A stretch of DNA of 35,370 nt from an uncultured Anaerolineae bacterium. GTDB lineage: Bacteria; Chloroflexota; Anaerolineae; JACIWP01. Made by a program: the position numbers and the translations under genes. The stretch spans positions 1-35,370 of the forward strand of contig CALIBQ010000079.1 in the NCBI GenBank assembly GCA_938049385.1, in the 5' to 3' direction. Below are positions 17,653 to 33,663 of this stretch, piece by piece (the first letter of the stretch is position 1; every line of letters starts with the position of its first letter). The notes under the pieces are model-generated. The model made no database searches. It had not been told where the DNA came from and saw nothing but the letters and a program-made list of their open reading frames with translations.

Positions 17653-17841
17653 ATGTTGCTCAAGTACTATCTGATGCTGAACAATTGGCTGAAGAGCGAG
17701 GAAGGCCAGGATGTCGTGGAATATGCCGTGCTGGTCATCTTCATCGCTCTGATTGTGCTGGTAGGCGTGGGCCTCTTTGGCCAGCAGATGAGGGATATTT
17801 ACAATCAGATTGCGGGTAAAGTCGCATCGGGGTTACAATAA
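17653..17841 (+). CDS. flp: Flp-family type IVb pilin
   Basis: A 62-residue prepilin. The leader peptide ends in EEG, and the processing site G|QDVVEYA (after about residue 18) has the invariant Glu5 and Tyr6 of mature Flp pilins. One hydrophobic helix follows (AVLVIFIALIVLVGVGLFG), then a short hydrophilic tail. TadV-type prepilin peptidase would cleave it and TadA, TadB and TadC would assemble it into an adhesive fibre. It has the best ribosome site of the operon and is the promoter-proximal gene. A hairpin 47 nt after its stop probably raises its level over the machinery genes. Confidence 0.95.
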   Translation: MLLKYYLMLNNWLKSEEGQDVVEYAVLVIFIALIVLVGVGLFGQQMRDIYNQIAGKVASGLQ

Positions 17842-17960: not shown

Positions 17961-18341
17961 GTGTATCACAGCCACACAGCGCGCGGGCAGGATGTGGTGG
18001 AATTCGCCCTGATCCTGCCCGTGCTTGTGCTCCTGCTGTTTGGCATCATTGAGTTCGGCCTGCTGTTCTATCATTACAACACGGTGGCCCTGGCAGCGCG
18101 GGACGGTGCGCGCGCCGGCGTGGTGCCCTCCGCCGGCGACGCGCAGGTCTACAGCGCGGTGTTCCGGGCCGGCATCGGCCTCGGGCTCCGGTCCGAAAAC
18201 GTCCGGGTGGATTGGACGCGCGAGATCGTCCGGGTCACCGTCTGGTATGACCATTATTTCATGACCGCTCCCATCATCGAAGCCCTCGGCGGCAATCCAA
18301 TTATCCGCTTGCAGACGACAGCCACAATGCGCAGAGAATAG
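17961..18341 (+). CDS. TadE-like minor pseudopilin, copy 1
   Basis: A 126-residue protein starting at a GTG (17961) with GGAG about 8 nt upstream; the nearby ATG at 17943 reaches a stop codon after five codons. A prepilin-like site RG|QDVVEFALILPVL has Glu at mature position 5, and the helix that follows (ALILPVLVLLLFGIIEFGLLFY) is the TadE signature. The C-terminal 90 residues are extracytoplasmic. TadE pseudopilins are processed like Flp and act as minor subunits or assembly primers. The processing site is nearly identical to that of the Flp pilin (QDVVEY versus QDVVEF). CpaB follows 11 nt downstream. Confidence 0.9.
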   Translation: MYHSHTARGQDVVEFALILPVLVLLLFGIIEFGLLFYHYNTVALAARDGARAGVVPSAGDAQVYSAVFRAGIGLGLRSENVRVDWTREIVRVTVWYDHYFMTAPIIEALGGNPIIRLQTTATMRRE

Positions 18342-18352
18342 GACACAGACGT

Positions 18353-19141
18353 ATGGGACGCTTACGCGGATGCCTATGGCTGACAGCGGGGTTGGTAGTG
18401 GCGTTGATCGCCGGCTTGGTCGGGTTCCTGGTGCTGACGCGTGCCTCGGCACAGCGGGCCGGCCCGGAACAGGCCGCGGCGATGCCGGAAGTGGACGTGG
18501 TGGTGGCCGCACGCTCCGTGGCAGTGCGTTCGGTCCTCACCAATGAAGATCTCCAGCTCACGAAACTGCCGGTGAATGCCGCGCCGGGAGGGGCGGTGAG
18601 CCGGCTGGAAGACGCCGTGGGGAAGATCACCCTGGTGGATTTGTACGCTGGCGAGGTCATCCTCTCCCAGCGTCTGCTGGACCCCAATGTGATCACCGGT
18701 GATGGCCGGCTGGCGCTGTTCGTCACGGAAAACGAGGTGCTGGTGGCCGTACCTGCCAACCAGCTCCTGACCCAATTGAATATACTGAAGCCAGGGGACC
18801 ATGTGGACCTGCTGTTCTCGCTGGATATCCCGGTGCAAACGGGCGCGCAGGCCGCCAGTGAGGAGAAGCGGGTGACCTTTGCCCTGCTCCAGAACCTGAC
18901 CATTGCCGCCATTATCCGCAGTGGGGCGTCCGCTGAAAATCCACAGGCCGGCGTGCCGCAGGCGCTTCTCCTGGCGGTGGACCCTCAGGACGCACTCGTC
19001 CTGAAACATGTGATAGACTCCGGCGCGATCGCGGATGTGGCACTGCGGGCCCCCGGCGTCGAACGGCCCTTCCCGGTGGAGCCGGTGGATATGGACTATG
19101 TCATCGACCAGTACCGCCTGCCCACCGGGCCGATACGCTAA
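18353..19141 (+). CDS. cpaB: Pilus assembly protein CpaB/RcpC
   Basis: A 262-residue protein anchored by one N-terminal helix (about 8-30). A SAF domain at about 45-110 (VDVVVAARSVAVRSVLTNED, then LYAGEVILSQRLL) is followed by the RcpC-type beta domain (LVAVPANQLLTQLNILKPGD, then VDLLFSLDIPV). In Gram-negatives it links the inner machinery with the secretin; with no secretin seen here it may instead line or stabilise a passage through the wall. AGGA is 9 nt before the ATG. The gene is between tadE and tadZ, as in many Tad operons. Confidence 0.9.
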   Translation: MGRLRGCLWLTAGLVVALIAGLVGFLVLTRASAQRAGPEQAAAMPEVDVVVAARSVAVRSVLTNEDLQLTKLPVNAAPGGAVSRLEDAVGKITLVDLYAGEVILSQRLLDPNVITGDGRLALFVTENEVLVAVPANQLLTQLNILKPGDHVDLLFSLDIPVQTGAQAASEEKRVTFALLQNLTIAAIIRSGASAENPQAGVPQALLLAVDPQDALVLKHVIDSGAIADVALRAPGVERPFPVEPVDMDYVIDQYRLPTGPIR

Positions 19142-19186: not shown

Positions 19187-20416
19187 ATGTTGGCCAGCTT
19201 AGTTCCAGGGGAAACCCTTCAGATCCTGCTCGTCAGTGCCCAAGAGGGGATGCGCGTCGAGGTCGGGAGGGCGCTGGCCGGCCTGCGGGTCGGGGACTAC
19301 CGTCTGCACTGGGTGTCACAGCCTGACCTGGCCCTGGTGCGGGCCTTAGATGTCCTGCCCCATGTGATCCTGGTGGACGATGACCTGGGGGGCGTCAATC
19401 CAGTCCATATTGTCGGACAAATCGCCTCCCAGTTCCCAGAGACCGCCGTGTTGGTGCTGATCGCCGGCGACGCCATGACGCTGGCACGCGAGGTGGTGCT
19501 CGCCGGCGCGCGCGGTTTCCTACCCAAACCGTTCAAGCCGGAAGAGCTGGTGACGTCCCTGCGTCAAGTGCTCGCCAAACAGGCGGTGCCGACATCCGGG
19601 CAAGCCGGCCTTCCTGCCGGCCGGGTGGTGGTCTTCTGCTCTCCCAAAGGGGGCACCGGGCGCACCACGCTGGCGATGAACACCGCCATCGCCCTGCGGG
19701 AGCTGTCCCGACAGGACGTGGTGCTGGTGGATGCGGACTACGCCGCGCCAGCGCTGGATGTGGCCCTGAACATCAATTCCTCAAGCAATATCACGGCCTT
19801 ACTGCCAAAGCTGGCGCGTCTGGATGCCGATTTGATCGGCCAGGTGCTGGCAACGCATAAATCGGGCGTCCGGGTCCTTTTGGCCCCGCCGCCGGCCGAC
19901 CTGTCTTCTTCCATCTCTCTACCCGATGTGCAGCGCGTCCTGGTATGGCTGAAGCGCATGTTTGCCTGGGTCATCGTGGACCTCGGCCTGCCGCTGGACG
20001 AAACGGCCTTCGGCTTTCTGGACGGTGCGGACCGCATCGTGCTGTGCGTCTTGCCGGAGCTGGTGGGTCTGCGCAACACGCGGCTGATGATCGACCAATT
20101 CTTTGATCGCGGGTACTCGCCGCACAAGGTCTGGCTGATACTGAACCGCGCCACGCTCAAGGGTGGGCTTTCCCCACGGGATATCGGCGAGCGCCTGCGG
20201 GTAGCCGTGACACAGACTATCCCGGATGATCAGGCGCTGGCCACGTATTCCATCAACCGGGGCGTACCGTTTGTGATGAGCCATCCGCGCAGTGCGTTGG
20301 GCCGTGCGGTGCGGGAGCTGGCCGCGAAACTATTGGAGGAGTCGCCGGCCGCCGTGCAGGAAGAAAACCGGCTAGAAGGCAAAGGACTGCCGAGATCGCT
20401 CCGCATTTCTCCATAG
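19187..20416 (+). CDS. CpaE/TadZ-like ATPase with receiver-like domain
   Basis: A 409-residue protein with two domains. The receiver-like part (about 5-130) has VILVDDDLGG and LPKPFKPEEL, which keeps the conserved Lys, but the usual acidic pair at the start is replaced (ILLVSAQEG), so phosphorylation is doubtful. The ParA/MinD-like ATPase (about 140-400) has FCSPKGGTGRTTLAMN, a deviant Walker A with Arg in place of the second Lys, and VLVDADYAAPALDVAL. TadZ/CpaE proteins place the Tad machine at a cell pole. AGGGAGG lies 4 nt before the ATG at 19187. It should work with TadA, TadB and TadC, all encoded downstream. Confidence 0.92.
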   Translation: MLASLVPGETLQILLVSAQEGMRVEVGRALAGLRVGDYRLHWVSQPDLALVRALDVLPHVILVDDDLGGVNPVHIVGQIASQFPETAVLVLIAGDAMTLAREVVLAGARGFLPKPFKPEELVTSLRQVLAKQAVPTSGQAGLPAGRVVVFCSPKGGTGRTTLAMNTAIALRELSRQDVVLVDADYAAPALDVALNINSSSNITALLPKLARLDADLIGQVLATHKSGVRVLLAPPPADLSSSISLPDVQRVLVWLKRMFAWVIVDLGLPLDETAFGFLDGADRIVLCVLPELVGLRNTRLMIDQFFDRGYSPHKVWLILNRATLKGGLSPRDIGERLRVAVTQTIPDDQALATYSINRGVPFVMSHPRSALGRAVRELAAKLLEESPAAVQEENRLEGKGLPRSLRISP

Positions 20417-20460: not shown

Positions 20461-21414
20461 ATGGCCGGTGGCCCCTTACTGTTCGGTATTCTGCTGGCGC
20501 TCAGTGTCCTCCTGGGATTCATTGGCCTGTGGTCGCTGACCAATGTGCGCGATCCGGTCGAGGAGCGCATGCGCAAGTACGGCGTCTCGCAGGAACTGGC
20601 CGGCGAAGAGGAGGAGAAAAAAAGCCGGCGGCGTTCCTTGACGGGCCTGGCACGCCTGCTGACCGGCTTTGGCCTGGGGCACCGCCTGGCGCGTTCCCTG
20701 ATGCGCGCCGGCTTTCCCTTCACCGCCGCCGAATACACCGTCATCATCCTGGCCGCGGCCGTTGTGGGATTCACGGTCGGCACGCTGGCCATGGGCTACT
20801 CTCTGGGGATAGTCCTGGGCCTGCTGGGGCTTGTCCTGCCGGTCATGTATCTGCGCTACAAAGAGGGCCAGCGGGTGCGGGCCATCACCTGGCAGTTGCC
20901 TGATGCGCTGACCCTGCTGGTGGGCGCCCTGCGGGCCGACCTGGGGCTCTCCCAGGCGATGCAGTTCCTGGCGGATAACCTGCCGCCCCCGGCCTCCGTC
21001 GAGTTCGCCTGGGTATCACGCGCCGTTTCCCTCGGAATGCCGGTCAACCAGGCCCTGCGCGAGATGGCAGACCGGGTGGGGAGTGACGACCTGGCGTTGA
21101 TGGTCACCGCCGTCACCGTCCAGAGCGAGATGGGCGGCAACCTGGCCGAGACGTTAGAAACCATTGGCGAGACCGTGCGGGAGCGCATCCGCATGTTCCG
21201 GCAGGTGCGTGTGCTGACCGCCCAACAGCGTTTGAGCGGGTATATCCTGACCGCCGCGCCGATCTTCCTGGCTTTCTGGCTTTTCCTGACCCAGCCCGAT
21301 TATATTGGCCGCTTGTTCCAGCCCGGCCCGATTCGACTGGTGCCCGTCGTCGCCGTGGTGCTCCAGGTGGTGGGTTTTCTGGTCATTCGGAAAATCATGG
21401 ATATCGAGATATGA
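20461..21414 (+). CDS. tadB: Tad pilus inner-membrane platform protein TadB
   Basis: A 317-residue T2SSF-domain protein. Two N-terminal hydrophobic segments (about 1-25 and 95-130) precede the cytoplasmic F domain with QLPDALTLLVGALRADLGLSQ, and MGGNLAETLETIGETVRER, the standard GspF/TadB signature, follows; two C-terminal helices close the protein. It forms the inner-membrane platform that couples TadA ATP hydrolysis to pilin extraction, paired with TadC. Its stop overlaps the TadC start by 4 nt (ATGA), so the pair is translationally coupled. Confidence 0.93.
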   Translation: MAGGPLLFGILLALSVLLGFIGLWSLTNVRDPVEERMRKYGVSQELAGEEEEKKSRRRSLTGLARLLTGFGLGHRLARSLMRAGFPFTAAEYTVIILAAAVVGFTVGTLAMGYSLGIVLGLLGLVLPVMYLRYKEGQRVRAITWQLPDALTLLVGALRADLGLSQAMQFLADNLPPPASVEFAWVSRAVSLGMPVNQALREMADRVGSDDLALMVTAVTVQSEMGGNLAETLETIGETVRERIRMFRQVRVLTAQQRLSGYILTAAPIFLAFWLFLTQPDYIGRLFQPGPIRLVPVVAVVLQVVGFLVIRKIMDIEI

Positions 21415-22421
21415 GCACACTGGGTGAAGCAGGCGTTCCCAATCTTCTGCTTGCCGCACTGCTGGACTGGCCCATCTGGTCCCCGCTGGTATTTGGCCTG
21501 CTGGTAGGCCTGGCGGTCCTGTTCGTATGGATGGCATTTGCGCCGGCCTCCGCCAAGCAGGCGGTGGAACAGCGAGCTGAAGGGTATTTGAAGCGCGCGG
21601 CGATCCCCAGCGACCCTCGATTGGAAGGCTCCTTCATCTCCCGCGTAATAGTGCCCTTCCTGCGGGGCATCCTGCGTTTTCTGGGCCGGCTGCTTCCCGG
21701 CCGCAACGTGGAAGCGACGCGCAAGATGCTGATCTATGCTGGCGAGCCGGGCGGCCTGACGCCGCTCGACTTCTTCGGCCTCCAAATATTGATGATCGCC
21801 CTGCCGGCGGTGATATATCTCCTGGCGGTCGGCCTGAAACAGCCCCTGACGCTGGCACTTCGCAACACCCTGCTCATTGCCATACTGGGCTTCATGCTCC
21901 CACGCTTTTGGCTGAGGAGCAGGGTGCGTCAGCGCCAGCACGAGATCGCCCGGGCGCTCCCTGATGCGCTGGACATGATGACCATCGGTGTGGAGGCCGG
22001 CCTGGCCTTTGAGTCTGCCATGCTACGCGTCGGGGAACAGTGGCACAACGCCCTGACACGGGAGTTCGAGCGCGCCGTGGCTGAGATGCGGGTGGGCACG
22101 CCGCGTGACCTCGCCTTACAGCGCATGGTGGAGCGCACCGGGGTGCCGGACCTGGAGACCTTCGTGGCAGTGCTGGTGCAGTCCAACCAATTGGGCGTGC
22201 CCATATCCCAGGTTCTGCACGCCCAAGCGGCAGAAATGCGCCTGAAGCGGCGACAGCGTGCCGAGGAGCTGGCACGCCAGGCAGGCGTCAAGATGGTGTT
22301 CCCGCTCATCTTCTTTATCTTCCCAGCCATGATTGTAGTCATGTTAGGCCCTGCCATCCCGATTATCGCGGAATTCCTGGCTTCCATGCGCACCAGCGTC
22401 ACCAGCTTTCCGCTTCAATGA
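21411..22421 (+). CDS. tadC: Tad pilus inner-membrane platform protein TadC
   Basis: A 336-residue T2SSF-domain protein and paralogue of TadB. The F domain contains ALPDALDMMTIGVEAGLAFE and VPISQVLHAQAAEMRLKRRQ followed by AEELARQAGVKMVFPLIFFI, typical of TadC C-termini. Helices are predicted near 20-45, 115-165 and 285-320. It pairs with TadB as the assembly platform. The next gene starts 13-33 nt downstream, depending on the start codon. Confidence 0.93.
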   Translation: MSTLGEAGVPNLLLAALLDWPIWSPLVFGLLVGLAVLFVWMAFAPASAKQAVEQRAEGYLKRAAIPSDPRLEGSFISRVIVPFLRGILRFLGRLLPGRNVEATRKMLIYAGEPGGLTPLDFFGLQILMIALPAVIYLLAVGLKQPLTLALRNTLLIAILGFMLPRFWLRSRVRQRQHEIARALPDALDMMTIGVEAGLAFESAMLRVGEQWHNALTREFERAVAEMRVGTPRDLALQRMVERTGVPDLETFVAVLVQSNQLGVPISQVLHAQAAEMRLKRRQRAEELARQAGVKMVFPLIFFIFPAMIVVMLGPAIPIIAEFLASMRTSVTSFPLQ

Positions 22422-22454
22422 TTCGTTCATGACGTGAAGGGAACACAGCCGGAT

Positions 22455-24317
22455 ATGGACATCACAGATGAACGTTTTGCCGCCATAGCCGAACATCCGC
22501 TGTACAAACAGGGCCTTGCTCACCTGCAGGCCGGCGAATGGGACGACGCCATCCGATGCTTTGAGACCCTGCAGGACCTGTACGGCGTCAATCAGCCGGT
22601 ACAGCATGCCCTGAACGAGGCGCGCTTCAAAGCGCGGTTTGATGAGGGCGCGCGGGTGCGGCCAAAAGGGATTGTGTTCCCCTGGCGGCAGGTGGCGATC
22701 GCCGGCCTGGCCCTCATCATCGTGGCGTTTCTGGGCCTGCAGATACTCAGGCTCTGGAACACACAGGTGGTGCCGCTTCTGGCACAGATGCAGGAGCAAC
22801 AGCGCATCAGCCGGCTGGCGGCGGAAGGGAAGGCGTTTCTGGATGCCGGCCGGCTGGACGAGGCGCAGGCACGGTATGAAGAGGTGCTTGCCAGAGTGCC
22901 CGATCACCCCGAGGCTCTGGCCGGCCTCCAGCAGGTCCAGACCAAACGCGAGCTGACCGCACTCTGCGAGGAAGCGATGACCCGCTACAAGGCGGGGGAT
23001 TTCGCCAGGGCGCGCGAGCTGTTCACGGAGCTTTCCTTCCGCTCGCCGGGCTACTGCGACGCAAGCCGCTACATCGCGGAGATCAACCGGCAGTTGACCC
23101 TGACCGACCTGTGGAATGAGGCTGAGGCGCTGTACAAGAGCGGCGATTACCAGGGCGCCTCTCAACGCTACGAACAGATCAAGACCATGGATGTGAATTT
23201 CCAGCGCGAGCTGATCGCCGCCCGGCTCTATGACTGTTACTTCCAGCTCGGCAAGGCACTGATCGAAAAGAACCCGCCGGCGCCCGGTATGGTGCCTCTG
23301 GCACTGGATTATTTCGGCAAGGCCCTGGCCCTGCGGCCGCGCGATCCGCAGGCCTCCCTCGAACAGCAGATGGCCAGCTCCTTCCTGGCCGGCCAACAGG
23401 CATACCTGGCAGGCCGCTGGGATGCCGCCGCCGATGCCCTGGGCGCCGTGTATGCCCAGCGCCCAGACTACCTCCACGGCGCTTTTATAGAGATGCTGTA
23501 CGACGCTTACATTCGCAGTGGCGACCTTCATCGCGATCAAAAGGATTATCATTACGCCTGGGAACAGTACCGAAAAGCCTCGCTCCTGCCGGTCGGAGAG
23601 CCAGTAATGGCCCGGGCACGCATGGAAGAGGTCCAACCTATGCTGACGCCCACGCCGACACCCACGGCGACCGGCACGCCTACGCCCATCCCAACACCGA
23701 CGCCCATCCCATCTCCCACGCCCACCGTGGTGCTGGCGACCCTGCACAATAAGATTGTGTTCTGGGCGGACAAAGAGGGGCAGACCGGCTTCTGGATGAT
23801 GAATCCGGACGGCACAGGCCGGCGCTACATCGGCAACGACTTGAAACTGCGTCAGCAGTTCGAACAGTTGTGGGAGAGCGAGCGGCGCTCACCGGACGGC
23901 CGCTACCGGGTCTACGTCACCAAGGACAAAGGCGATTCCGCGCCGATGGTCTATATCCAAGGCGAGGTGGACCAGTGGGGCAAGGCCCCCACCTGGAAAG
24001 TCACCAAGGGCTTTTCCAAGGTCTCGTATGACCCGGTCTGGGCACCGGACGGAAGCCGCATCGCCTTTGTCAGCCAGGAGCGCACCAGCGATGATATCTG
24101 GGTCATCTACCCGGATGGAAGCGATCCGCGCAACCTCACCCCGAACGAGTGGGAATGGGACAAGCATCCCTCCTGGTCGCCGGACAGCACGCAGATCGTC
24201 TTCTGGTCCAACCGCACAGGAGTGAAGCAAATTTACGTGATTGATGTGAACGGGCAGAATCTTCGCCGGCTGAGCGAAACCACCTGGGACGAATACGATC
24301 CGATATGGGTGAAATGA
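22455..24317 (+). CDS. TPR - transmembrane - beta-propeller protein in Tad operon
   Basis: A 620-residue protein from the ATG at 22455 (an in-frame GTG at 22434 would add seven residues). Residues 10-60 look like one cytoplasmic TPR unit, and a single helix spans about 77-98 (VAIAGLALIIVAFLGLQ). Residues 110-390 carry more TPR-like units (YEEVLARVPDHPEALAGLQQ, then AMTRYKAGDFARARELF). A Thr/Pro linker at about 395-425 leads to a TolB/PD40-type propeller with WMMNPDGTG, PVWAPDGSRIAF, IWVIYPDGSDPRNLT and PSWSPDSTQIVF. It thus has one domain inside and a long arm outside. It is not a standard Tad component. A pilus-biogenesis scaffold or wall-spanning sensor is a reasonable guess. Confidence 0.85.
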   Translation: MDITDERFAAIAEHPLYKQGLAHLQAGEWDDAIRCFETLQDLYGVNQPVQHALNEARFKARFDEGARVRPKGIVFPWRQVAIAGLALIIVAFLGLQILRLWNTQVVPLLAQMQEQQRISRLAAEGKAFLDAGRLDEAQARYEEVLARVPDHPEALAGLQQVQTKRELTALCEEAMTRYKAGDFARARELFTELSFRSPGYCDASRYIAEINRQLTLTDLWNEAEALYKSGDYQGASQRYEQIKTMDVNFQRELIAARLYDCYFQLGKALIEKNPPAPGMVPLALDYFGKALALRPRDPQASLEQQMASSFLAGQQAYLAGRWDAAADALGAVYAQRPDYLHGAFIEMLYDAYIRSGDLHRDQKDYHYAWEQYRKASLLPVGEPVMARARMEEVQPMLTPTPTPTATGTPTPIPTPTPIPSPTPTVVLATLHNKIVFWADKEGQTGFWMMNPDGTGRRYIGNDLKLRQQFEQLWESERRSPDGRYRVYVTKDKGDSAPMVYIQGEVDQWGKAPTWKVTKGFSKVSYDPVWAPDGSRIAFVSQERTSDDIWVIYPDGSDPRNLTPNEWEWDKHPSWSPDSTQIVFWSNRTGVKQIYVIDVNGQNLRRLSETTWDEYDPIWVK

Positions 24318-24318
24318 C

Positions 24319-25668
24319 ATGGTGAACTTCTCGCGCAATTCCAACCTCACATCCAGACCAGCAGTCTCGCCCACACGGGTGCGCAAGGACGAGAATGAAC
24401 GCAACCGGATGATCCGAGAGAAGGTGCACCGCCGACTGTTGGCGGAACTAAGCCCCACCGTCCGCACGGATAATGTGGAGGAGGTCCGCCGCGCCCTGGA
24501 GCGCATCTTCGATCAAACGCTCGTCGAAGAGAAGGTGCCGCTCAGCCGCATCGAGCGGGCCGAACTGTTCGAACAAGTGGTGGCCGACATCCTCGGCTAC
24601 GGGCCGCTCCAAGCCCTTCTCGAGGATGAGACCATCACGGAAATCCTGGTGAATGGGCCGGAGCAGGTCTTTATCGAACGGGATGGAAAGCTGGAGGAAA
24701 CCAACCTGCGCTTCCGGGATACCGAGGACCTGATGCGCATCATCGAGCGCATCGTGTCTCCGCTGGGCCGGCGCGTCGACGAAAGCAGTCCTATGGTGGA
24801 CGCGCGCCTGCCGGACGGCTCACGCGTCAATGTCATCATACCGCCCCTGGCGCTTAACGGCCCCTGCATCAGCATTCGCAAGTTTGCCAAGGCGGTATAC
24901 TCGATGGAAGACCTCCTGCGGCTCAATACGCTTACTAGGGAGATGGCGGAGTTCCTTAAGGCATGCGTGCTGGCGAGGCTGAACATCGTCATCTCCGGCG
25001 GCACATCCACTGGCAAAACCACCCTGCTGAATGTGCTCTCTAGCTTCCTGCCGAACAACGAACGCATCATCACCATCGAGGACGCGGCGGAGCTTCAGCT
25101 CCAGCAGAGGCATGTGGTGCGGCTGGAGGCGCGCCCGCCCAACGTGGAAGGGCGCGGCGAGGTCACGATCCGCCAGCTCGTCATCAACGCCCTGCGCATG
25201 CGCCCGGACCGCATCGTGGTGGGCGAGGTGCGCGGCGGCGAGGCGCTGGATATGCTTCAGGCTATGAACACCGGCCATGACGGCTCGCTGACCACTGTGC
25301 ACTCCAACTCGCCGCGCGATACCCTGCACAGAGTGGAGACCATGGTGTTGATGGCCGGCATGGACCTGCCCCTGCGCGCCATCCGCGAGCAGATCGCCTC
25401 CGCCTTCGACTTGGTGGTGCACTTGGACCGCCTCAGCGACGGAAGCCGCAAGGTGGTGCGGGTGACCGAAGTGCAGGGCATGGAAGGCGATGTCATCGTC
25501 ATGCAGGACATCTTCCAGTTCGTCCAGACCGGTGTGCAGGGGAACCGGGTGGAGGGCTATTTCACCGCCACCGGCGTGCGGCCCAAGTTCATGGACAAGG
25601 TGGAAGCCGCCGGCATCTTCCTGGACCCGAGCATCTTTGCGCCGGCGAAACGGAAGGAAAAACGCTAG
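24319..25668 (+). CDS. tadA: Tad pilus assembly ATPase TadA/CpaF
   Basis: A 449-residue secretion ATPase of the VirB11/CpaF family. The N-terminal domain (about 60-210) has [20 protein letters not shown] and [20 protein letters not shown]. The Walker A is [11 protein letters not shown] at about 227-237, the Walker B and Asp-box region is [12 protein letters not shown], then [20 protein letters not shown] and [17 protein letters not shown] with the His-box. It forms a hexamer that powers extension, and perhaps retraction, of the Flp pilus. The ATG is 1 nt after the stop of the TPR-propeller gene, so coupling is likely. Here tadA follows tadB and tadC rather than preceding them. Confidence 0.95.
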
Positions 25669-25678
25669 GAGCGCGACG

Positions 25679-26731
25679 TTGGAACGGCTGACCGATATCC
25701 AGAAAAGCTCTGTCCGACCCGATGAAGCCATCCGACCTGTGCCGCTGGCCGAGGTGATGGAGACGGTCGAGAGTGAGGTAGCCGCCGGCAACCTGGAGCA
25801 CATGCGGCCCTTCCCGACCGGTTTCCTCCCGCTGGACGAGGTGCTCAACGGGGGAATCCGGCGCGGCGAACTGCTCATCATCGGCGGGCCGACGGGCGTG
25901 GGCAAAACCATCTGGGGACTGCAAGTTGCCCGCAATGTGGTGCATCGGGACCCCGCCGCCGGCGCCCTGTACGTCTGCTACGAGCACAGTGAGGCCCACC
26001 TCTTCTCCCGCGTGCTGTGCCTGGAAAGCGCGGAGATGGGCCATAAGGACGACGCGCTGACCATGCGTCGGCTGACGGAAATGTCCCTCAACGCGCCGCC
26101 GGGCGCCGGCCTGCTGGCCATGCTCCAGCGGGTGCCGCGCTACGCCGCTGTGCTCGACAGAGTGGCTTCCTACGCCGGCCGGCTCCTCGTCGTTAGCGCC
26201 AGCGGCCGCAACTCTACGTTGGACGAGATCCAGCGCTGGACGGAGGGAGCACTGCGAACGGTTTCGAGCAAGCTCCTGCTGGTGGTAGACTATCTACAAA
26301 AGATACCGGTCCCCCGGGTGGTGCTGGAACAAGAAGAGGAAGTAACCGTCTTTCTGGCGCACGGCCTGAAGGAGCTGGCACTAACGCTGGATATCCCGGT
26401 GATTGCCATCGCCGCGTCCGACCGCCCGGGCCTGAAAGCGAAGCGCATGCGCTTCTCCGACCTGCGGGGCAGTTCTGCCCTGCAGTACGAGGCGGATATC
26501 GGCCTGATCCTGAACAACAAATTTGCCATCGTCAGCCGCGAGCATCTGATTTACAACCCCCTGCAGGCAGAGGCCATGCGCAACTGGGTGGTCCTCAGCG
26601 TGGAAAAGAACCGCGCCGGCGTGAGCGCGGTGGACATGGAATATGCGCTTGACGCCGCACATTTCCGCATCGTCCCCGACGGCAACTTCGTCCGCGAGCG
26701 CCTGGTGGATGAGAAGATAACCCTGGAATAA
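25679..26731 (+). CDS. DnaB-helicase-like RecA-fold ATPase in Tad operon
   Basis: A 350-residue protein starting at a TTG (25679) with TAGGAG 7 nt upstream and starting right after tadA; a longer reading back to 25490 would overlap tadA. It matches the C-terminal domain of replicative DnaB helicases: PTGFLPLDEVLNGGIRRGEL, Walker A GPTGVGKT (about 70-77), Walker B LLLVVDYLQ (about 199-207), and DLRGSSALQYEADIGLIL, which resembles the DnaB arginine-finger region. There is no DnaB N-terminal or primase-binding domain, and residues 1-40 are short and variable. It could be a KaiC/DnaB-like ATPase that remodels something linked to pili, or act on DNA. Its presence inside a Tad operon is unexpected. 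Confidence 0.85.
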   Translation: MERLTDIQKSSVRPDEAIRPVPLAEVMETVESEVAAGNLEHMRPFPTGFLPLDEVLNGGIRRGELLIIGGPTGVGKTIWGLQVARNVVHRDPAAGALYVCYEHSEAHLFSRVLCLESAEMGHKDDALTMRRLTEMSLNAPPGAGLLAMLQRVPRYAAVLDRVASYAGRLLVVSASGRNSTLDEIQRWTEGALRTVSSKLLLVVDYLQKIPVPRVVLEQEEEVTVFLAHGLKELALTLDIPVIAIAASDRPGLKAKRMRFSDLRGSSALQYEADIGLILNNKFAIVSREHLIYNPLQAEAMRNWVVLSVEKNRAGVSAVDMEYALDAAHFRIVPDGNFVRERLVDEKITLE

Positions 26732-26774: not shown

Positions 26775-28559
26775 ATGGCGGAACTTCTGGCAGCCGGCGG
26801 AATTGTGGAACAAGACTCTGTGGCCCTCTACCTCAGCGAAATGCTGCCGCAGGACTGCATTATTGTCGCCGATGCTGTCGTCTATCAACGCCCCCTCGAT
26901 GCCGTCGTCATCAGCCCTCAGGGATTAACACTGCTGAAGGTTGTAGATTGGGCGGCCATGACGCGGTTCGCGCGGCGTGAGCTGGGAGAGGAAGGCGCCG
27001 GCGTCCGGGCGCGCTATTTGAACGCCGGCGCTCAGCAGGCCGTGCAGGCCATGAAAGCATTTCTGCAGGACGAGTTTCCATATCTTAACCCAGTGGTTCG
27101 CTGTTTCCATGTGGTGCGCCTTCCCAACTCCGACTCCCCGGAATGGAAGGTGCTGGAATCGTCGGGCCTGCGGCAGGAATCGCTTGCGGAGACCCTTATG
27201 GCAGAAGAAATGGCCCCAGATGCGGTGCTGACGGATGAGGAAACACGGCAAGTCCTTGGCGAAGCCCTGCGCGACCGCTGGATCGCCCGCTCCCAGCGTG
27301 CCCAAAAACCCTTCATTTTCCGCTCGGGCGGCCTGTTCGGCCGAGGGGCCAGGGCCTGGACCATTCGCGCCCTGGTGCGGCACATGGACCGCCACCCTTC
27401 GGACGGTATACACCATCTGAGCAACGGTACCCTGGAGAAATGGCTGGAGGAAATTGGGGCGCCGCACCTAGCGGAATTGGCCCATACAGCACTGCGCGAG
27501 TCGCCAACCGATACCCGTCAGGCGCTGGAGCTGTTCCTGGTGGGCACGGGTCTGGTGAAGCGCCGGCGCCCCCGGGTGCGGCCCAAGCGAGTGAACCTGG
27601 GGTACATCATCGCCGACGATACCGCCACCGCCGTCGTGCGCCTGCACCGCAAAGGCGGTTACTGCTTCGGGGAACTGCGCACCAGCCATCCCTGGATGCA
27701 GGTGGAGCCCAAGTCTTTCCAAGGGGAACCCTGCCGTGCACTGGTCACGGTCAATACTTCCAGTCTGTTAATTGACCCCGAACCCTATCATGCCAGCGTG
27801 ATCGTGAGTTCCCGTGCCATGGCGGAGCCGGTGGAAATACCGGTGCGCTTCCGCGTGGTGGCCATGCCGTCGCCCCTGCACCGGGCGGTGCTTCGGCCGG
27901 CGGGGGCCTTTCTGCTCCTCGGCGCGCTGGGGGCCGGCATCGGCCTGCTGATGGCGCTGGCCGGGGTATGGCCAGGGTGGAACCTGCCGATGAACGCTGT
28001 GCTCGGGCCGAACCTCGCCGGCGCGGCCATGGTGGGCATATTCTGGGCACTGCTGGGGGTTATCTGGCGGGCACTGCTTCCGCCGGCCTGGCCCTTCCTG
28101 TACGGGCTTCGGCGCCTGCTGGTGCAGGTGCTGATCTGGGCGGCTGTCCTGGCAGTCAGCATGCTTGCCGGCTGGGGGCTGGCATCTTGGCGTCTGGACG
28201 TCTCCCTGCCGTCGCTGGGAAGCCTGCTCCTCTTCGCCGTGCTTTACGGCCTGGCGCCGGCCATCGTGCCAGCAGTCATCACCGAGGAGGCCCGGGCACG
28301 GCGCGCCGGCGGCGCGGTGGTGGAGAGGGCCGGCCGAACACGCCGAGCGGCCCTCCTGATCGCCGCCCTGGTGCTCCTTCTGATTGCGGCGCTGTTCCTG
28401 CCGCAGATTATCGAGCGCGCCCAGCAGAGCGCCCAGCTCCAGAAGACATGGGCCGGCGGCCAGCAGTGGGCGGCCGATGTCTGGACCAGGTTGAACGATA
28501 TCGTGGACGAGCTGTTGCGGCAGTTCTACCTGCGCCTGTATGACCGCCGGGCGCCGTAA
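26775..28559 (+). CDS. NERD-like / Ig-like / five-helix membrane protein
   Basis: A 594-residue protein I cannot assign to a named family. Residues about 36-60 (RPLDAVVISPQGLTLLKVVD) resemble the core of NERD nuclease-related domains, but the lysine expected in the '.V.V' strand region is not clearly placed. Residues 60-270 are mixed alpha/beta. Residues about 275-365 look like an Ig-fold module (LRTSHPWMQVEPKSFQGEP, then VTVNTSSLLIDPEPYHASVI), and about five helices fill 375-545 before a short amphipathic tail. It lies 43 nt after the DnaB-like gene and is likely cotranscribed. The NERD-like part suggests nucleic-acid contact, which would fit with its neighbour, but this is inference. Confidence 0.65.
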   Translation: MAELLAAGGIVEQDSVALYLSEMLPQDCIIVADAVVYQRPLDAVVISPQGLTLLKVVDWAAMTRFARRELGEEGAGVRARYLNAGAQQAVQAMKAFLQDEFPYLNPVVRCFHVVRLPNSDSPEWKVLESSGLRQESLAETLMAEEMAPDAVLTDEETRQVLGEALRDRWIARSQRAQKPFIFRSGGLFGRGARAWTIRALVRHMDRHPSDGIHHLSNGTLEKWLEEIGAPHLAELAHTALRESPTDTRQALELFLVGTGLVKRRRPRVRPKRVNLGYIIADDTATAVVRLHRKGGYCFGELRTSHPWMQVEPKSFQGEPCRALVTVNTSSLLIDPEPYHASVIVSSRAMAEPVEIPVRFRVVAMPSPLHRAVLRPAGAFLLLGALGAGIGLLMALAGVWPGWNLPMNAVLGPNLAGAAMVGIFWALLGVIWRALLPPAWPFLYGLRRLLVQVLIWAAVLAVSMLAGWGLASWRLDVSLPSLGSLLLFAVLYGLAPAIVPAVITEEARARRAGGAVVERAGRTRRAALLIAALVLLLIAALFLPQIIERAQQSAQLQKTWAGGQQWAADVWTRLNDIVDELLRQFYLRLYDRRAP

Positions 28560-28615
28560 TAATCTCTGCCTGCAGGTGACAGTTACCTCTGGCTAAAGGC
28601 GAGGGAGTGTGGCAT

Positions 28616-29053
28616 ATGCGGAGAAAATCGGAGCGAGGAGCGAATCTGCTGGAAATGGCCATTGTAACGCCGGTACTGCTTCTTCTGCTGGCCGGCGTGG
28701 TGGATCTGGGCCGGGCGTTTTACTCCTACGTTGTCATCGCCAATGCTGCCCGGGAGGGAGCGCGCATTGCCTCGCGCCTGCCGTGCTATCCGGAGATCAC
28801 CCAACGCACAGCTCTGCGGAACGAGATCATCAACGCGACCCTGCAGGAGGCGGCCAACAGCGGTGTACAGTTGTATCCGGGCAACGTCATCATTGAACCG
28901 GACCCGCTGTCAGCGTGCGCCGGCCGGGGAGAACCCATCAGCGTGACGGTCTCATTCCAGTACCGCACCTGGATGGCCAGCATCACCGGCATCGGCGATT
29001 TCGTGCTGTCCAGCACCACACGCATGATCAAGTTTGGGAATGATCAGATGTGA
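28616..29053 (+). CDS. TadE-like minor pseudopilin, copy 2
   Basis: A 145-residue protein. The ATG at 28616 is chosen because GGGAG lies 8 nt upstream; a GTG at 28607 would overlap it. The prepilin-type site is RG|ANLLEMAIVTPVL with Glu at mature position 5, followed by the hydrophobic helix LLLLLAGVVDLGRAFYSYVV and AREGARIAS, which is standard for TadE-domain proteins. The remainder is extracytoplasmic and has two cysteines (in PCYPE and SACAG) that may form a disulfide. It differs clearly from the first TadE-like protein and is probably a minor pilus subunit. TadG follows 58 nt later. Confidence 0.9.
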   Translation: MRRKSERGANLLEMAIVTPVLLLLLAGVVDLGRAFYSYVVIANAAREGARIASRLPCYPEITQRTALRNEIINATLQEAANSGVQLYPGNVIIEPDPLSACAGRGEPISVTVSFQYRTWMASITGIGDFVLSSTTRMIKFGNDQM

Positions 29054-29111
29054 ACAGGGTTGGGATATTGACACCCGCCCCGGGCGGCTTGTGCCGCGAA
29101 AGGAGGGCACC

Positions 29112-30212
29112 ATGAACTGGCTCAAACATCAACGAGGGCAGACGCTCGTCTGGGTAGCGTTCGCCCTGCTGGGTCTGCTGACCGTCATTGCCTTCGCCAT
29201 AGACTTCGGGATGGTGTGGACGGAGCGCCGGCATATGCAAAACGCTGCCGACGCCGGCGCCCTGGCCGGCGCCCGCGAACTGTGCCTGGGCGGCAGTGCA
29301 AGCGCCGCCCGAGCCAAGGCCTTTGAGTACGCCATCACGCGCAACCACCGCCCCTGGGCACAGGAAGCGACCATCACCATTGGAAGCAATACCGTCACCG
29401 TCCTCGTCGTCGAACGCGTGCAGGTCTTCTTCGGCGGCATCATCGGGATCCCCATTGTGACCGTCAGCGCCGACGCCACCGCCGCCTGCGGCAAGGTCAC
29501 CAGCGCCTGCGGCCTGTGGCCCGTCGCCTTCGACATCGACCGCTGGCAGTATCTGATCCAGGCCGAGCAGTGCAATAAGCCTTTCTACGTCTGGGATGAC
29601 GATCAGATTGTGGACTGCAAGGTCTACGACTGCGACCTGGACAATGATGGCGATGATGACGTGGTGGTGGGAGGCGACCGGGGTTGGCTGGACCTGTCGG
29701 GGGTGCTGGATGTCTATTCCCACGTATGCCTCCAGCCGGGCTGTGGGGAGTCAGAGCTCGAATGCTGGATCCGCAACAATTCGGGCACGAAGATTGACCT
29801 GCCGGCCTGCATCTCGGGCGACTCTGGCGTTAAGGCCGGCATCAAGGACGGTGTGAATGCTCGGAAGGGGGACACGGTGGCCGTGCCGCTGTTTGAGTCG
29901 GTAGGCTGTAAGGATCCCTCGGGCAACTGCCCGGGCGGCATGCGCTACTGGATCACCGCCGTCGGGTGCATCAAGGTGGTGGGCTGGGACCAGAAAGTGC
30001 GGCTGGACCCCATCGAACTGCCCACGCCCACCCTACCGCCGCCCGGGGTAACGCCTGAACCGACGCCGACAAAATCGCCAAAGAACCCAATTATCGGCAA
30101 GGCCATCGTCGCCATCATGGACTGCAGTAACTCGTGCATGACCAACTGCGGCAGTACCTCCGGCGAACCGGGCGAACCCTGGGAGTACAAGGCGGTGAGC
30201 CTCATCAAGTAG
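29112..30212 (+). CDS. TadG-like protein with Cys-rich, possibly Ca-binding domain
   Basis: A 366-residue protein from the ATG at 29112 (AGGAGG 5 nt upstream); the reading from 29034 adds unsupported residues. The N-terminus is the Flp/TadG signature: RGQTLVWVAFALLGLLTVIA, then the hydrophobic helix and RRHMQNAADAGALAGARELC. The outer domain is cysteine-rich (at least a dozen) and holds DLDNDGDDD at about 175-183, an EF-hand/dockerin-like acidic loop that may bind calcium. A Pro/Thr linker near 305-335 leads to a second small Cys-rich C-terminus (SNSCMTNCGS). There is no VWA domain as in many TadG proteins. It is probably a surface-exposed pilus-associated protein. Confidence 0.8.
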   Translation: MNWLKHQRGQTLVWVAFALLGLLTVIAFAIDFGMVWTERRHMQNAADAGALAGARELCLGGSASAARAKAFEYAITRNHRPWAQEATITIGSNTVTVLVVERVQVFFGGIIGIPIVTVSADATAACGKVTSACGLWPVAFDIDRWQYLIQAEQCNKPFYVWDDDQIVDCKVYDCDLDNDGDDDVVVGGDRGWLDLSGVLDVYSHVCLQPGCGESELECWIRNNSGTKIDLPACISGDSGVKAGIKDGVNARKGDTVAVPLFESVGCKDPSGNCPGGMRYWITAVGCIKVVGWDQKVRLDPIELPTPTLPPPGVTPEPTPTKSPKNPIIGKAIVAIMDCSNSCMTNCGSTSGEPGEPWEYKAVSLIK

Positions 30213-30466: not shown

Positions 30467-32134
30467 ATGAAATTTCTGCAAACAAAGAGGGGTCGTATTG
30501 CCGCGGCGCTGGCGATCGCCGTACTGCTGGCGCTGGGCGCCGCCTGGGCCGTCTTCGCCGACCAAGTGGTCAATACCATTGACACTACGGTGGACCCTGC
30601 GCTGGAGATCGTGACGATTACCGCCGGCGGTTCGGCAACAGTCGGCTTCTACATTAAGACAGAAAACAATATACCCCCAGGTGATGTAAACGGGTGCAAT
30701 GCGACGGGTAATGACCCGGCGACTGTGACCCTTTCCGTGCCGGCCGGCGTCACCGCAAGCTCAACTTCCCTCACTTTCACTGGCTGCGGTACGGCAAACG
30801 CAAAAACTGTCACGTTCTCATCCAGCACCGCAGGCGAGTACACCATCTCGGTGGCCAGCGTGACGGGAGGCAGGAGCGGTAGTTTGTGGGAGACGGCGCC
30901 GGCGGCATTCACCCTGGTTGTCAACCCTCCCTCCGACACTACGCCGCCGGTCATCACGCCAAACGTCTCCGGCACGCTGGGGAACGACGGCTGGTATGTG
31001 AGCGATGTGACGGTGAGCTGGACGGTGGTTGACAACGAATCAGAAATTACCTCCATGTCCGGCTGTGATCCTACCACTATTGCCTCGGATACTGCCGGCA
31101 CGACCCTGACCTGCACGGCGACCAGTGCCGGCGGGACCAGCTCCGCATCTGTCACCATCAAGCGCGACGCCACCCCGCCCACCATCACAGGCTCCCGCTC
31201 GCCCGGCCCGAACGCTTACGGTTGGAACAACACCGACGTGACGGTGACGTTCACCTGCAGTGACGCCCTCTCGGGCATCGCCTCCTGCGGCCCGGATGTG
31301 ACGCTGAGCGGCGAGGGCGCGGGCCAGTCGGCCACCGGGACGGCGGTGGATCAGGCCGGCAACAGCGCCAGCACCACCGTGAGCGGAATCAACATCGACA
31401 AGACCCCGCCCACTTTGAGCAATCTCACTGCCACCCCCAACCCGGCGGCGGTCAACACCCTCGTAACCTTCAGCGCTGCGGTGGAGGATACTCTATCCGG
31501 CCTGGCCCAGGTGGTGTACGAGTACAGCTTGGACGGCGGGAGCACCTGGACGCCGCTGACCGCCACCAGCGCGCCGTGGAGCGTCAGCATCACCTTCGAT
31601 GCGGCCCATGTGGTGCTGGTGCGGGCGCATGCCGTGGACAAGGCCGGCAACGTGAGCGGTGAGGATGCCATCCTGCTCGCTGTGTACGACCCCAGCGGCG
31701 GATTCGTGACAGGCGGCGGCTGGATCATGTCGCCGGCGGGCGCCTATGCCGCCAACCCGGCCCTGACCGGCAAGGCTACCTTCGGCTTCGTCGCCAAGTA
31801 CCAGAAGGGCGCCAACGTGCCAGTGGGCAACACCGAGTTCCAGTTTCACGTGGCGAACTTCAAGTTCAAGAGCACCTCTTACGAGTGGCTGGTGGTGGCG
31901 GGTGCCCGGGCGCAGTTCAAGGGCGTCGGCACGGTGAACGGCGCCGGCAGTTACGGCTTCATGCTTACCGCCATTGACGGCCAGGTATCTGGCGGCGGCG
32001 GTGTGGACAAGTTCCGCATCAAGATTTGGGATAAGGCCACTGGGGAAATCGTCTATGACAACCAGATGGGCGCCGGCGATGCGGCTGATCCCACCACCGC
32101 GGTGATGGGCGGCAGTATCGTTATCCACAAGTAA
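30467..32134 (+). CDS. Large secreted Ig-repeat protein with post-COAP-1-like C-terminal domain
   Basis: A 555-residue exported protein. A signal peptide of about 30 residues (AALAIAVLLALGAAWAVFA) is followed by Ig/HYR-like beta domains with the repeat phrases TTPPVITPNVSG, DATPPTITGSRSPG and DKTPPTLSNLT, at about 165-405. The C-terminal domain (about 411-555) begins GGFVTGGGWIMSPAGAYAAN and contains GKATFGFVAKYQKGANVPVG and YEWLVVAGARAQFKGVGTVN, matching from memory the post-COAP-1 type domain of extracellular bacterial proteins. It has no visible LPxTG anchor. AGGGAGGT is 5 nt before the ATG. It follows tadG by 254 nt and is closed by a strong terminator, so it is probably a surface or matrix protein made with the pilus. 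Confidence 0.82.
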   Translation: MKFLQTKRGRIAAALAIAVLLALGAAWAVFADQVVNTIDTTVDPALEIVTITAGGSATVGFYIKTENNIPPGDVNGCNATGNDPATVTLSVPAGVTASSTSLTFTGCGTANAKTVTFSSSTAGEYTISVASVTGGRSGSLWETAPAAFTLVVNPPSDTTPPVITPNVSGTLGNDGWYVSDVTVSWTVVDNESEITSMSGCDPTTIASDTAGTTLTCTATSAGGTSSASVTIKRDATPPTITGSRSPGPNAYGWNNTDVTVTFTCSDALSGIASCGPDVTLSGEGAGQSATGTAVDQAGNSASTTVSGINIDKTPPTLSNLTATPNPAAVNTLVTFSAAVEDTLSGLAQVVYEYSLDGGSTWTPLTATSAPWSVSITFDAAHVVLVRAHAVDKAGNVSGEDAILLAVYDPSGGFVTGGGWIMSPAGAYAANPALTGKATFGFVAKYQKGANVPVGNTEFQFHVANFKFKSTSYEWLVVAGARAQFKGVGTVNGAGSYGFMLTAIDGQVSGGGGVDKFRIKIWDKATGEIVYDNQMGAGDAADPTTAVMGGSIVIHK

Positions 32135-32153: not shown

Positions 32154-32187
32154 GTAGGGGCGGCTCATGAGCCGCCCCTACTTTTTT
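32154..32187 (+). terminator. Perfect palindromic terminator after Tad operon
   Basis: A 28-bp perfect palindrome (32154-32181) has outer ends GTAGGGGCGGCTCA and TGAGCCGCCCCTAC and is followed by six T residues (32182-32187). It also belongs to the GTAGGGGCG repeat family seen at 3538-3571 and in the RAYT gene. Confidence 0.92.
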
Positions 32188-32259: not shown

Positions 32260-33663
32260 ATGGAAATCCAGTTCCTTGGCGCCGTGCGCACCGTCACTGG
32301 CTCCATGCACCTGCTGGAGGTGAACGGCTTCCGGCTCCTGCTGGAATGCGGGCTGTTTCAGGGCCGCCGGCAGGAATCCTACGAGCGCAACCGACAGCTC
32401 CCCTTTGACCCCTCCTCCATTGACGCTATGGTGCTCTCACACGCCCACATTGACCACTCGGGCAACATCCCGAACCTGGTGCGGCTGGGCTTTCGCGGCC
32501 CGATATACAGCACGCCGGCCACCCGCGACCTGTGCAGTGCTATGCTCCAGGACAGCGCCCATATCCAGGAGGAAAACGCCGCCTACGTGAACAAGCAGCG
32601 CGCCCGTCAGGGCCTGCCGCCAGTAGAGCCTATCTACACTGTGGCCGATGCGGTCGCCTGCCTGCCCTCGTTCGTCAGCGTGGGCTATCACCGCCCCATG
32701 ACCATCGGCCCGGGCATCACCCTGACCTTTTACGACGCCGGCCATATCCTGGGTTCCGCCTTCGTCGTGCTGGACATCGAGGAGAACGGGCAAAGGCATC
32801 GGCTGATGTTCAGCGGGGATGTGGGCCGGCGCGACCTGCCCATCCTGCGTGATCCGGAGACCGTGCCGGGGGTGGATTACCTCATCCTGGAGAGCACCTA
32901 CGGCAACCGCCGGCATGAGACGCCCCAGGACGCCGAACGCCGGCTGCGCGAGATCGTCATCGCGGCATACCGCCAGGGCGGCAAGGTCATCATCCCCGCC
33001 TTCGCCGTCGGCCGCACCCAAGAAATTGTGTATCATCTCCATCGGCTCTGGGAGGCGCGCAAAATCCCGCGCCTGCCGATCTTCGTGGACAGCCCATTGA
33101 CGGTGAACGTGACCGAGATATTCCGCCTGCATCCGGAATGCTACGATGAAGAAGTCCGCGGATTCATCGCTTCCAACCACCAGAGAGACCCCTTTGGCTT
33201 CCAGGACCTGCATTATATCCGTTCCATGGAGGAGTCGAAGGAGTTGAACTTCCTGCGGGAGCCGGCCGTTATCATCAGCGCCTCCGGCATGGCCGAGCAC
33301 GGCCGCATCCTGCACCACCTCAAGAACAACATCGAGGACCCGCGCAGTGTTATCCTGCTGGTGGGGTTCCAGGCGGAGCACACCCTGGGCCGGCGCCTGC
33401 TGGAGCGCCAGCCGGAGGTGCGCATCTTCGGCGAGCCGTATCAACTGCGGGCGCGGGTGGAGCTGATCACTGGCTACAGCGCCCATGCCGATTATGAGGA
33501 GCTGACCGAATATGTGCGCGGCATGGAGCTGGGCCGGCTGAAGCATATTTATCTGGTGCATGGGGAGGAAGACGCCGCCCAGAGCCTGGCGGAAAAACTG
33601 CGCCCCCTAGGAGGATTTGTGGTATCGGTGCCGGCGGCCGGCGAGAAGGCCGCGCTCCAGTGA
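32260..33663 (+). CDS. Beta-CASP metallo-beta-lactamase ribonuclease-like protein
   Basis: A 467-residue MBL-fold enzyme of the YSH1/CPSF-like (COG1236) family. Its parts are: MEIQFLGAVRTVTGSMHLL; metal-binding HAHIDHSG; a metal-site Asp in SGDVGRRDLPIL; ESTYGNR; the beta-CASP region (IIPAFAVGRTQEIVYHLH, then DSPLTVNVTEIF); and the RMMBL end GYSAHADYEELTEYV. Relatives in bacteria and archaea are RNA-processing exo- or endonucleases. GAGG is 6 nt before the ATG at 32260. It has its own promoter and is followed by a small membrane protein 14 nt downstream, so the operon seems unrelated to the pilus. Confidence 0.93.
   Translation: MEIQFLGAVRTVTGSMHLLEVNGFRLLLECGLFQGRRQESYERNRQLPFDPSSIDAMVLSHAHIDHSGNIPNLVRLGFRGPIYSTPATRDLCSAMLQDSAHIQEENAAYVNKQRARQGLPPVEPIYTVADAVACLPSFVSVGYHRPMTIGPGITLTFYDAGHILGSAFVVLDIEENGQRHRLMFSGDVGRRDLPILRDPETVPGVDYLILESTYGNRRHETPQDAERRLREIVIAAYRQGGKVIIPAFAVGRTQEIVYHLHRLWEARKIPRLPIFVDSPLTVNVTEIFRLHPECYDEEVRGFIASNHQRDPFGFQDLHYIRSMEESKELNFLREPAVIISASGMAEHGRILHHLKNNIEDPRSVILLVGFQAEHTLGRRLLERQPEVRIFGEPYQLRARVELITGYSAHADYEELTEYVRGMELGRLKHIYLVHGEEDAAQSLAEKLRPLGGFVVSVPAAGEKAALQ

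Follow-up and report, generated by a model that had tools for sequence, protein, structure and literature searches.

The window analyzed here, a stretch of 35,370 nucleotides from an uncultured Anaerolineae bacterium, contains a single same-strand run of Tad pilus genes reaching from flp (17653) to 32134, and a gene for a DnaB-like ATPase lies inside it. The features are as follows.

17653-17841, forward strand: Flp-like pilin, 62 aa (Flp_Fap 22.9 bits, below the cut-off of 32.2)
17961-18341, forward strand: TadE-like minor pilin
18353-19141, forward strand: cpaB/rcpC (TIGR03177 97.9 bits, over the cut-off)
19187-20416, forward strand: cpaE/tadZ, receiver-like part plus MinD/ParA ATPase
20461-21414, forward strand: tadB platform protein (T2SSF 65.3 bits)
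21411-22421, forward strand: tadC platform protein (T2SSF 63.9 bits)
22434-24317, forward strand: TPR protein that also has a TolB-like beta-propeller; its gene, placed between tadC and tadA, is conserved in loci of this Tad subtype
24319-25668, forward strand: tadA, VirB11/TadA motor ATPase, directly upstream of the DnaB-like ATPase gene (T2SSE 227 bits; TIGR03819 350 bits)
25667-25671, forward strand: ribosome-binding site AGGAG, sharing bases with the stop codon of tadA and separated from the TTG by 7 nt (read from the sequence)
25679-26731, forward strand: DnaB_C-only ATPase gene, 350 aa, TTG start (Pfam DnaB_C 79.8 bits; AlphaFold2 pLDDT 93.4; Z 31.1 to DnaB 4esv)
26775-28559, forward strand: M594, a conserved membrane protein partner encoded downstream, containing a PapD/ASH-like beta domain
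28607-29053, forward strand: TadE-like minor pilin
29034-30212, forward strand: TadG-like protein
32154-32181, forward strand: intrinsic-terminator-like stem (12 pairs) plus T tract, closing the gene run (consensus scan only)

The order of the run is flp-tadE-cpaB-cpaE-tadB-tadC-TPR/TolB-tadA-DnaB-like ATPase-M594-tadE-tadG-Ig-like protein. The open reading frame of the DnaB-like ATPase extends from a TTG at 25679 to a stop at 26731 and, with tadA ending at 25668, the gap between both genes is 10 nt. An earlier note on this DNA had read a TTG start at this distance from tadA and a strong ribosome site, and the coordinates, together with the AGGAG 7 nt upstream, confirm this. The genome separately encodes a full-length DnaB of 453 aa with normal motifs (contig C30) and a RadA with KNRFG (contig C4), and the Tad-linked protein is therefore a third one. 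A second, ordinary Tad locus of the same genome (L175, contig C4, 43000-62000) has the order cpaB-cpaE-tadA-tadB-tadC and no DnaB-like gene.

Some other genes of this region deserve a short description. In the AlphaFold2 model of M594, residues 262-363 form a beta domain resembling PapD/ASH (MSP) domains (Z 13.1), and behind it come long helices that probably span the membrane; the N-terminal part is only weakly NERD-like (Pfam E 0.21), and neither Pfam nor NCBIfam gives the protein a name. The last gene before the strong terminator (30467-32134) encodes a large protein that looks exported, may contain Ig-like repeats, and could be a pilus-associated surface protein. Farther on, at 32260-33663, this bacterial genome encodes a beta-CASP nuclease that, among NCBIfam models, scores highest with type VII CRISPR Cas14 (439 bits, below the cut-off of 800) and next with archaeal aCPSF1 (318 bits).

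The DnaB_C family of Pfam (PF03796) covers residues 46-329 of the ATPase at 79.8 bits against a cut-off of 27. Pfam reports no match to the DnaB N-terminal domain, and in the AlphaFold2 model the stretch ahead of the linker helix is only about 22 residues long, so that the proposed DnaB-type RecA fold without this domain is borne out. The comparison with DnaB, RadA, and KaiC profiles, which had been suggested as a check, gives DnaB_C as the best match, with the equivalog models for both DnaB (TIGR00665, 73 bits vs a cut-off of 385.25) and RadA (34.4 vs 403) falling far short. The AlphaFold2 model, built from 87 sequences, has a pLDDT of 93.4 and a pTM of 0.91. Its best structure match is DnaB (4esv_F, Z 31.1, 276 aligned residues, rmsd 3.1), followed by G40P (Z 30.8), T7 gp4 (27.4), RadA (23.4), and KaiC (around 22). 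Residues 19-334 superpose on DnaB 158-441, including the region of the linker helix, which in DnaB docks on the neighboring subunit.

The earlier note had also raised a KaiC-like regulator of the pilus. Such a protein might act on the pilus as a timer or an autokinase. KaiC chains do align at Z 22, and the KaiC family of Pfam (PF06745) comes out just above its cut-off (27.6 vs 26.6 bits), though over a P-loop segment of 66 residues only. However, the protein has a single domain, all NCBIfam KaiC models stay far below their cut-offs, and both sequence (79.8 vs 27.6 bits) and fold (Z 31 vs 22) lie closer to DnaB. We consider a KaiC-like timing or autokinase role very unlikely.

The residues expected of a hydrolytic DnaB-type ATPase can be located as follows.

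25874-25909, forward strand: Walker A region, residues 66-77, LIIGGPTGVGKT (G75 and K76 in 87/87 family members)
25982-25987, forward strand: catalytic Glu102-His103 after strand 2 (E in 87/87, H in 86/87)
26285-26302, forward strand: Walker B VDYLQK, residues 203-208 (D204 in 87/87)
26405-26497, forward strand: H3/H4-equivalent segment, residues 243-273 (alignment, family columns, and contrast with true DnaBs)
26603-26620, forward strand: trans-acting finger motif EKNRAG, residues 309-314 (K310, N311, R312, and G314 in 87/87)

The motifs named beforehand, i.e., Walker A GGPTGVGKT, Walker B VDYLQ, and SDLRGSSALQYEADIGLIL, are all present. The protein is a DnaB-derived ATPase core with a linker helix, a full set of hydrolytic residues, and a trans-acting finger. 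With DnaB, its best match in both sequence and structure, it shares the RecA-type fold, the linker helix, Walker A and B, the catalytic Glu, and the K/R finger, but it differs in missing the N-terminal domain and in having the equivalents of Gln362, Glu382, and Gly384 replaced. A246 aligns with Gln362 of GsDnaB, the H3 glutamine and gamma-phosphate sensor of DnaB, and Ala occupies that column in 82 of the 87 members. R263, G264, and S266 (R in 76/87, G in 83/87, S in 71/87) are found at the positions of R381, E382, and G384, the DNA-contact triad of GsDnaB (PMC6391071), whereas true DnaBs of the same class retain SQLSR...DLRESG. The channel loop of the family is still basic (R256 in 86/87, R263 in 76/87), but since the gamma-phosphate-sensing Gln and the DNA-contact Glu are lost, a processive, replicative-type helicase activity is not expected from these residues. 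RadA/Sms is likewise a hexameric DnaB-like ATPase, whose KNRFG resembles the KNRxG of the family; nevertheless, x is mostly A, G, or S here, the F is absent, and the score of about 34 bits compares with a cut-off of 403.

We then turn to the distribution of the family, as sampled in Chloroflexota and Actinomycetota, for which many of the genomes are fragmented metagenome-assembled genomes (MAGs). A search of 60 relatives recovered family members at E < 1e-70, clearly separate from DnaB and RadA, and among 298 genomes of the class a profile search detected the family in 46. To read gene neighborhoods, we used the Tad proteins of the window itself together with HMMs made from their orthologues. 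In a tree of 100 rows, the protein of the window belongs to a clade of 19 Anaerolineae proteins (support 100/100), all 19 of which are encoded, as far as the contigs reach, in one type of Tad operon with the order cpaB-cpaE-tadB-tadC-TPR-tadA-DnaB-like ATPase-(M594)-tadE-tadG. The proposed survey of Chloroflexota Tad operons for the gene directly after tadA consequently gives a positive answer throughout this clade.

Elsewhere the arrangement differs. In 21 Actinomycetota loci (about 20 genomes, Acidimicrobiia and others) the gene directly follows tadC, in the order cpaB-cpaE-tadA-tadB-tadC-DnaB-like ATPase as far as the contigs reach, and it also follows tadC in other Chloroflexota classes (G710; locus L249). 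These classes further show it divergent from flp-tadE-tadG-cpaB-cpaE-tadA (G767 and G638; locus L252, with the cluster flp-tadE-tadE-tadG-cpaB-cpaE-tadA, and similarly L250). The adjacency to tadA noted earlier thus holds for the window's clade, while other linked members sit after tadC or diverge from the tad genes. Overall, a tad gene lies within 1 kb in 43 of the 101 members and within 5 kb in 51, in at least three arrangements, and the linked/unlinked label changes 10 times on the tree vs 33.5 times with shuffled labels. Two genomes carry two copies: in G391 (L184, L183) each copy follows tadC in a separate Tad locus, and in G416 (L178, L190) one of both is unlinked.

About half of the family, including an Anaerolineae clade of 24 rows, is not located beside tad genes. 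No functional partner was found among the neighbors of this unlinked clade, where synteny is at the level of the lineage only (e.g., AMMECR1); some neighbors resemble, by eye, a sigma factor and lipoate synthase. One weak TadE match in an otherwise unlinked clade (L104) was given no weight as linkage.

The family also co-occurs with TadA, which was detected at E <= 1e-80 in 208 of the 298 genomes. TadA is present in 46/46 Anaerolineae genomes with the DnaB-like ATPase vs 163/252 without it; in one of the 46 (G151) it is a fragment at a contig edge that only direct reading revealed. The association (Fisher p 2e-8) ignores shared ancestry and is supportive only, as is that for the 27 genomes in which the family occurs solely in its unlinked form (p 3e-5, again ignoring shared ancestry). 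On the other hand, Tad loci of the same subtype without the gene exist in G032, G181/G204, and G198/G267, and in a TadA tree, of which several deep forks are weakly settled, these loci nest within the gene-bearing clade. This implies three or more losses of the gene inside the operon clade to which it belongs, and makes it an accessory rather than a core part; G164 (L172), branching outside the window's Tad subtype, was left out of the count. A change in rate specific to TadA after gene loss was considered as a hint of contact and rejected: TadE, TadG, and M594 diverged equally in these lineages, and there is consequently no TadA-specific signal.

Do these patterns reflect a function of the pilus, or merely a housekeeping paralogue that happens to lie near tadA? 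A hitchhiking DnaB paralogue, or an assembly accident, would have no pilus role and would sit well with the repeated losses. The catalytic residues of the family are invariant, however, and the linkage recurs in two phyla and at least three arrangements, which largely refutes this explanation and leaves it barely credible. Neither of the findings named beforehand as fatal to the idea, a housekeeping paralogue or an unconserved adjacency, was obtained, and the claim that a separate ATPase of DnaB type is linked to Tad pili stands. We are confident that this is a genuine Tad-associated ATPase family and, because the gene recurs inside Tad clusters of two phyla, a second motor or regulator, as yet undescribed, is probable for these pili.

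As for other origins, a plasmid source was rejected as no plasmid match was found, and a phage source as viral contigs give only ordinary DnaB-type matches (best 90.6 bits, where family members reach about 200 bits and up). One family member (L269, 307 bits) lies on an unannotated faecal contig of 6.8 kb without tad genes, deposited as 'Bacteriophage sp.' (MT839844.1), which is probably not a phage. Defence-gene models gave no match.

How might such a protein act on a Tad pilus? According to published descriptions, one bifunctional ATPase, TadA/CpaF, both extends and retracts Tad pili (PMC12019362). TadA/CpaF and PilT/PilU are motor ATPases of type IV filaments, but belong to the PilT/VirB11 family and are not DnaB-type; PilU is described as a second ATPase for one pilus (PMC6821130). 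A positional parallel comes from archaea. The Epd pili are the closest relatives of Tad, and FlaH adjoins the major ATPase there (PMC6668835), while in archaella ArlH is a RecA-fold ring stimulating ArlI (PMC8978795). Both cases share with our locus a RecA-fold ATPase gene beside the gene for the secretion-type motor ATPase of a type IV filament system (PMC6668835, PMC8978795). ArlH/FlaH, however, is KaiC-type and homologous at the level of the RecA fold only, not a member of the same family. ArlH does not hydrolyze ATP, whereas the DnaB-like ATPase keeps all hydrolytic residues, a point in favor of hydrolysis, so that the analogy is a loose one. A regulatory role analogous to that of ArlH is a plausible candidate.

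The reading we prefer, tentatively, is that of an accessory, DnaB-derived ATPase ring modulating the TadA/TadBC motor of this Chloroflexota/Actinomycetota Tad subtype. The protein would form a hexameric ring via the linker-helix contact known from DnaB and would hydrolyze ATP. The ring may dock on the cytoplasmic face of the TadA hexamer, of the TadB-TadC platform, or of both, and could modulate the single bifunctional motor there, either in its engagement or in a switch between extension and retraction, much as the ATP-binding ring ArlH acts on ArlI. Motor control is favored by the preferred gene positions beside motor and platform genes, by the changed DNA-coupling residues, and by the pairing of a motor ATPase with a RecA-fold partner in type IV filament systems of archaeal descent. 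Against it count the members unlinked to tad, about half of the family, and some same-subtype loci without the gene; in addition, the basic channel residues R256 and R263 would fit nucleic-acid binding.

Alternatively, the protein could share only transcription with the tad genes and act in trans, for example as a nucleotide-state sensor for expression or for pole placement with CpaE/TadZ, without touching the motor. The presence of cpaE in the same loci agrees with this, as do the unlinked clades, which suggest a function tolerant of separation, but the preferred places beside tadA and tadC, in two gene orders, point back to motor and platform, and we hold such a regulator to be quite improbable.

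The main rival is a DNA-translocating motor. Here the Tad pilus would bring in single-stranded DNA for the DnaB-like ring to pull or process, and the Tad loci would be machines for DNA uptake or transfer. The DnaB fold, linker helix, and complete ATPase residues would suit it, and so would the basic channel loop and the Arg263 retained in most members, whereas almost all members have lost the counterparts of Gln362 and Glu382. Transformation of Micrococcus luteus needs Tad pili (PMC4322843), and an FtsK/SpoIIIE-like translocase, a DNA-motor-like gene of another ATPase family, adjoins its tad-1 cluster (PMC8467076). The latter also qualifies the earlier statement that helicase-like genes are absent from known Tad loci. 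Our literature search on DnaB, KaiC, or helicases with Tad/Flp pili found no description of the gene, which is no proof of novelty, but M. luteus tad-1 does have its translocase as a neighbor (PMC8467076). A survey of Chloroflexota pili, comprising about 1,234 Tad systems without secretins, does not mention the gene in the sections consulted (PMC12488501).

The ComEC gene 14 kb away had been put forward in favor of DNA uptake, an argument that did not survive. ComEC is found in 31/34 genomes with the DnaB-like gene vs 36/36 without, hence it is as frequent without the gene and undetected in three gene-positive genomes. In the window it is on the other strand, and wherever ComEC and the Tad-linked gene could both be placed in another gene-positive genome, they are on different contigs. 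A competence link through ComEC was therefore rejected.

More in favor of a DNA motor is a sister clade of eight rows (L111-L118), with several copies per genome in some cases. A Replic_Relax-like protein is encoded near seven of its loci and a TrwB/TraG-like coupling protein near six, next to ParB-like neighbors. As these loci resemble integrative conjugative elements, a nucleic-acid role is likely in that branch. Loci L111-L117 (e.g., L114:5220-13200) hold a TrwB/TraG-like protein, a small membrane protein, a lipoprotein-like protein, ParB, and Replic_Relax, and are possibly an undescribed integrative conjugative element of Chloroflexota. All in all, we judge a DNA-translocating motor unlikely for the Tad-linked proteins, and the fuller proposal, in which Tad loci are DNA-transport machines with their own ring-helicase-derived DNA motor, related to the one on conjugative-element-like loci, less likely still. 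If true, it would mean a Tad-based system for DNA uptake or transfer distinct from competence of the ComEC/ComFA type.

Returning to control of the TadA/CpaF motor, a second, apparently hydrolysis-competent ring whose gene is conserved beside tadA or tadC in two phyla would be a candidate for a dedicated control ATPase, or for a DNA motor, of a Tad pilus. Archaea show a similar arrangement in the pairing of ArlI with ArlH, though the RecA-fold subfamily is another one here, and this would suggest that such rings have been recruited convergently to the motors of type IV filaments.
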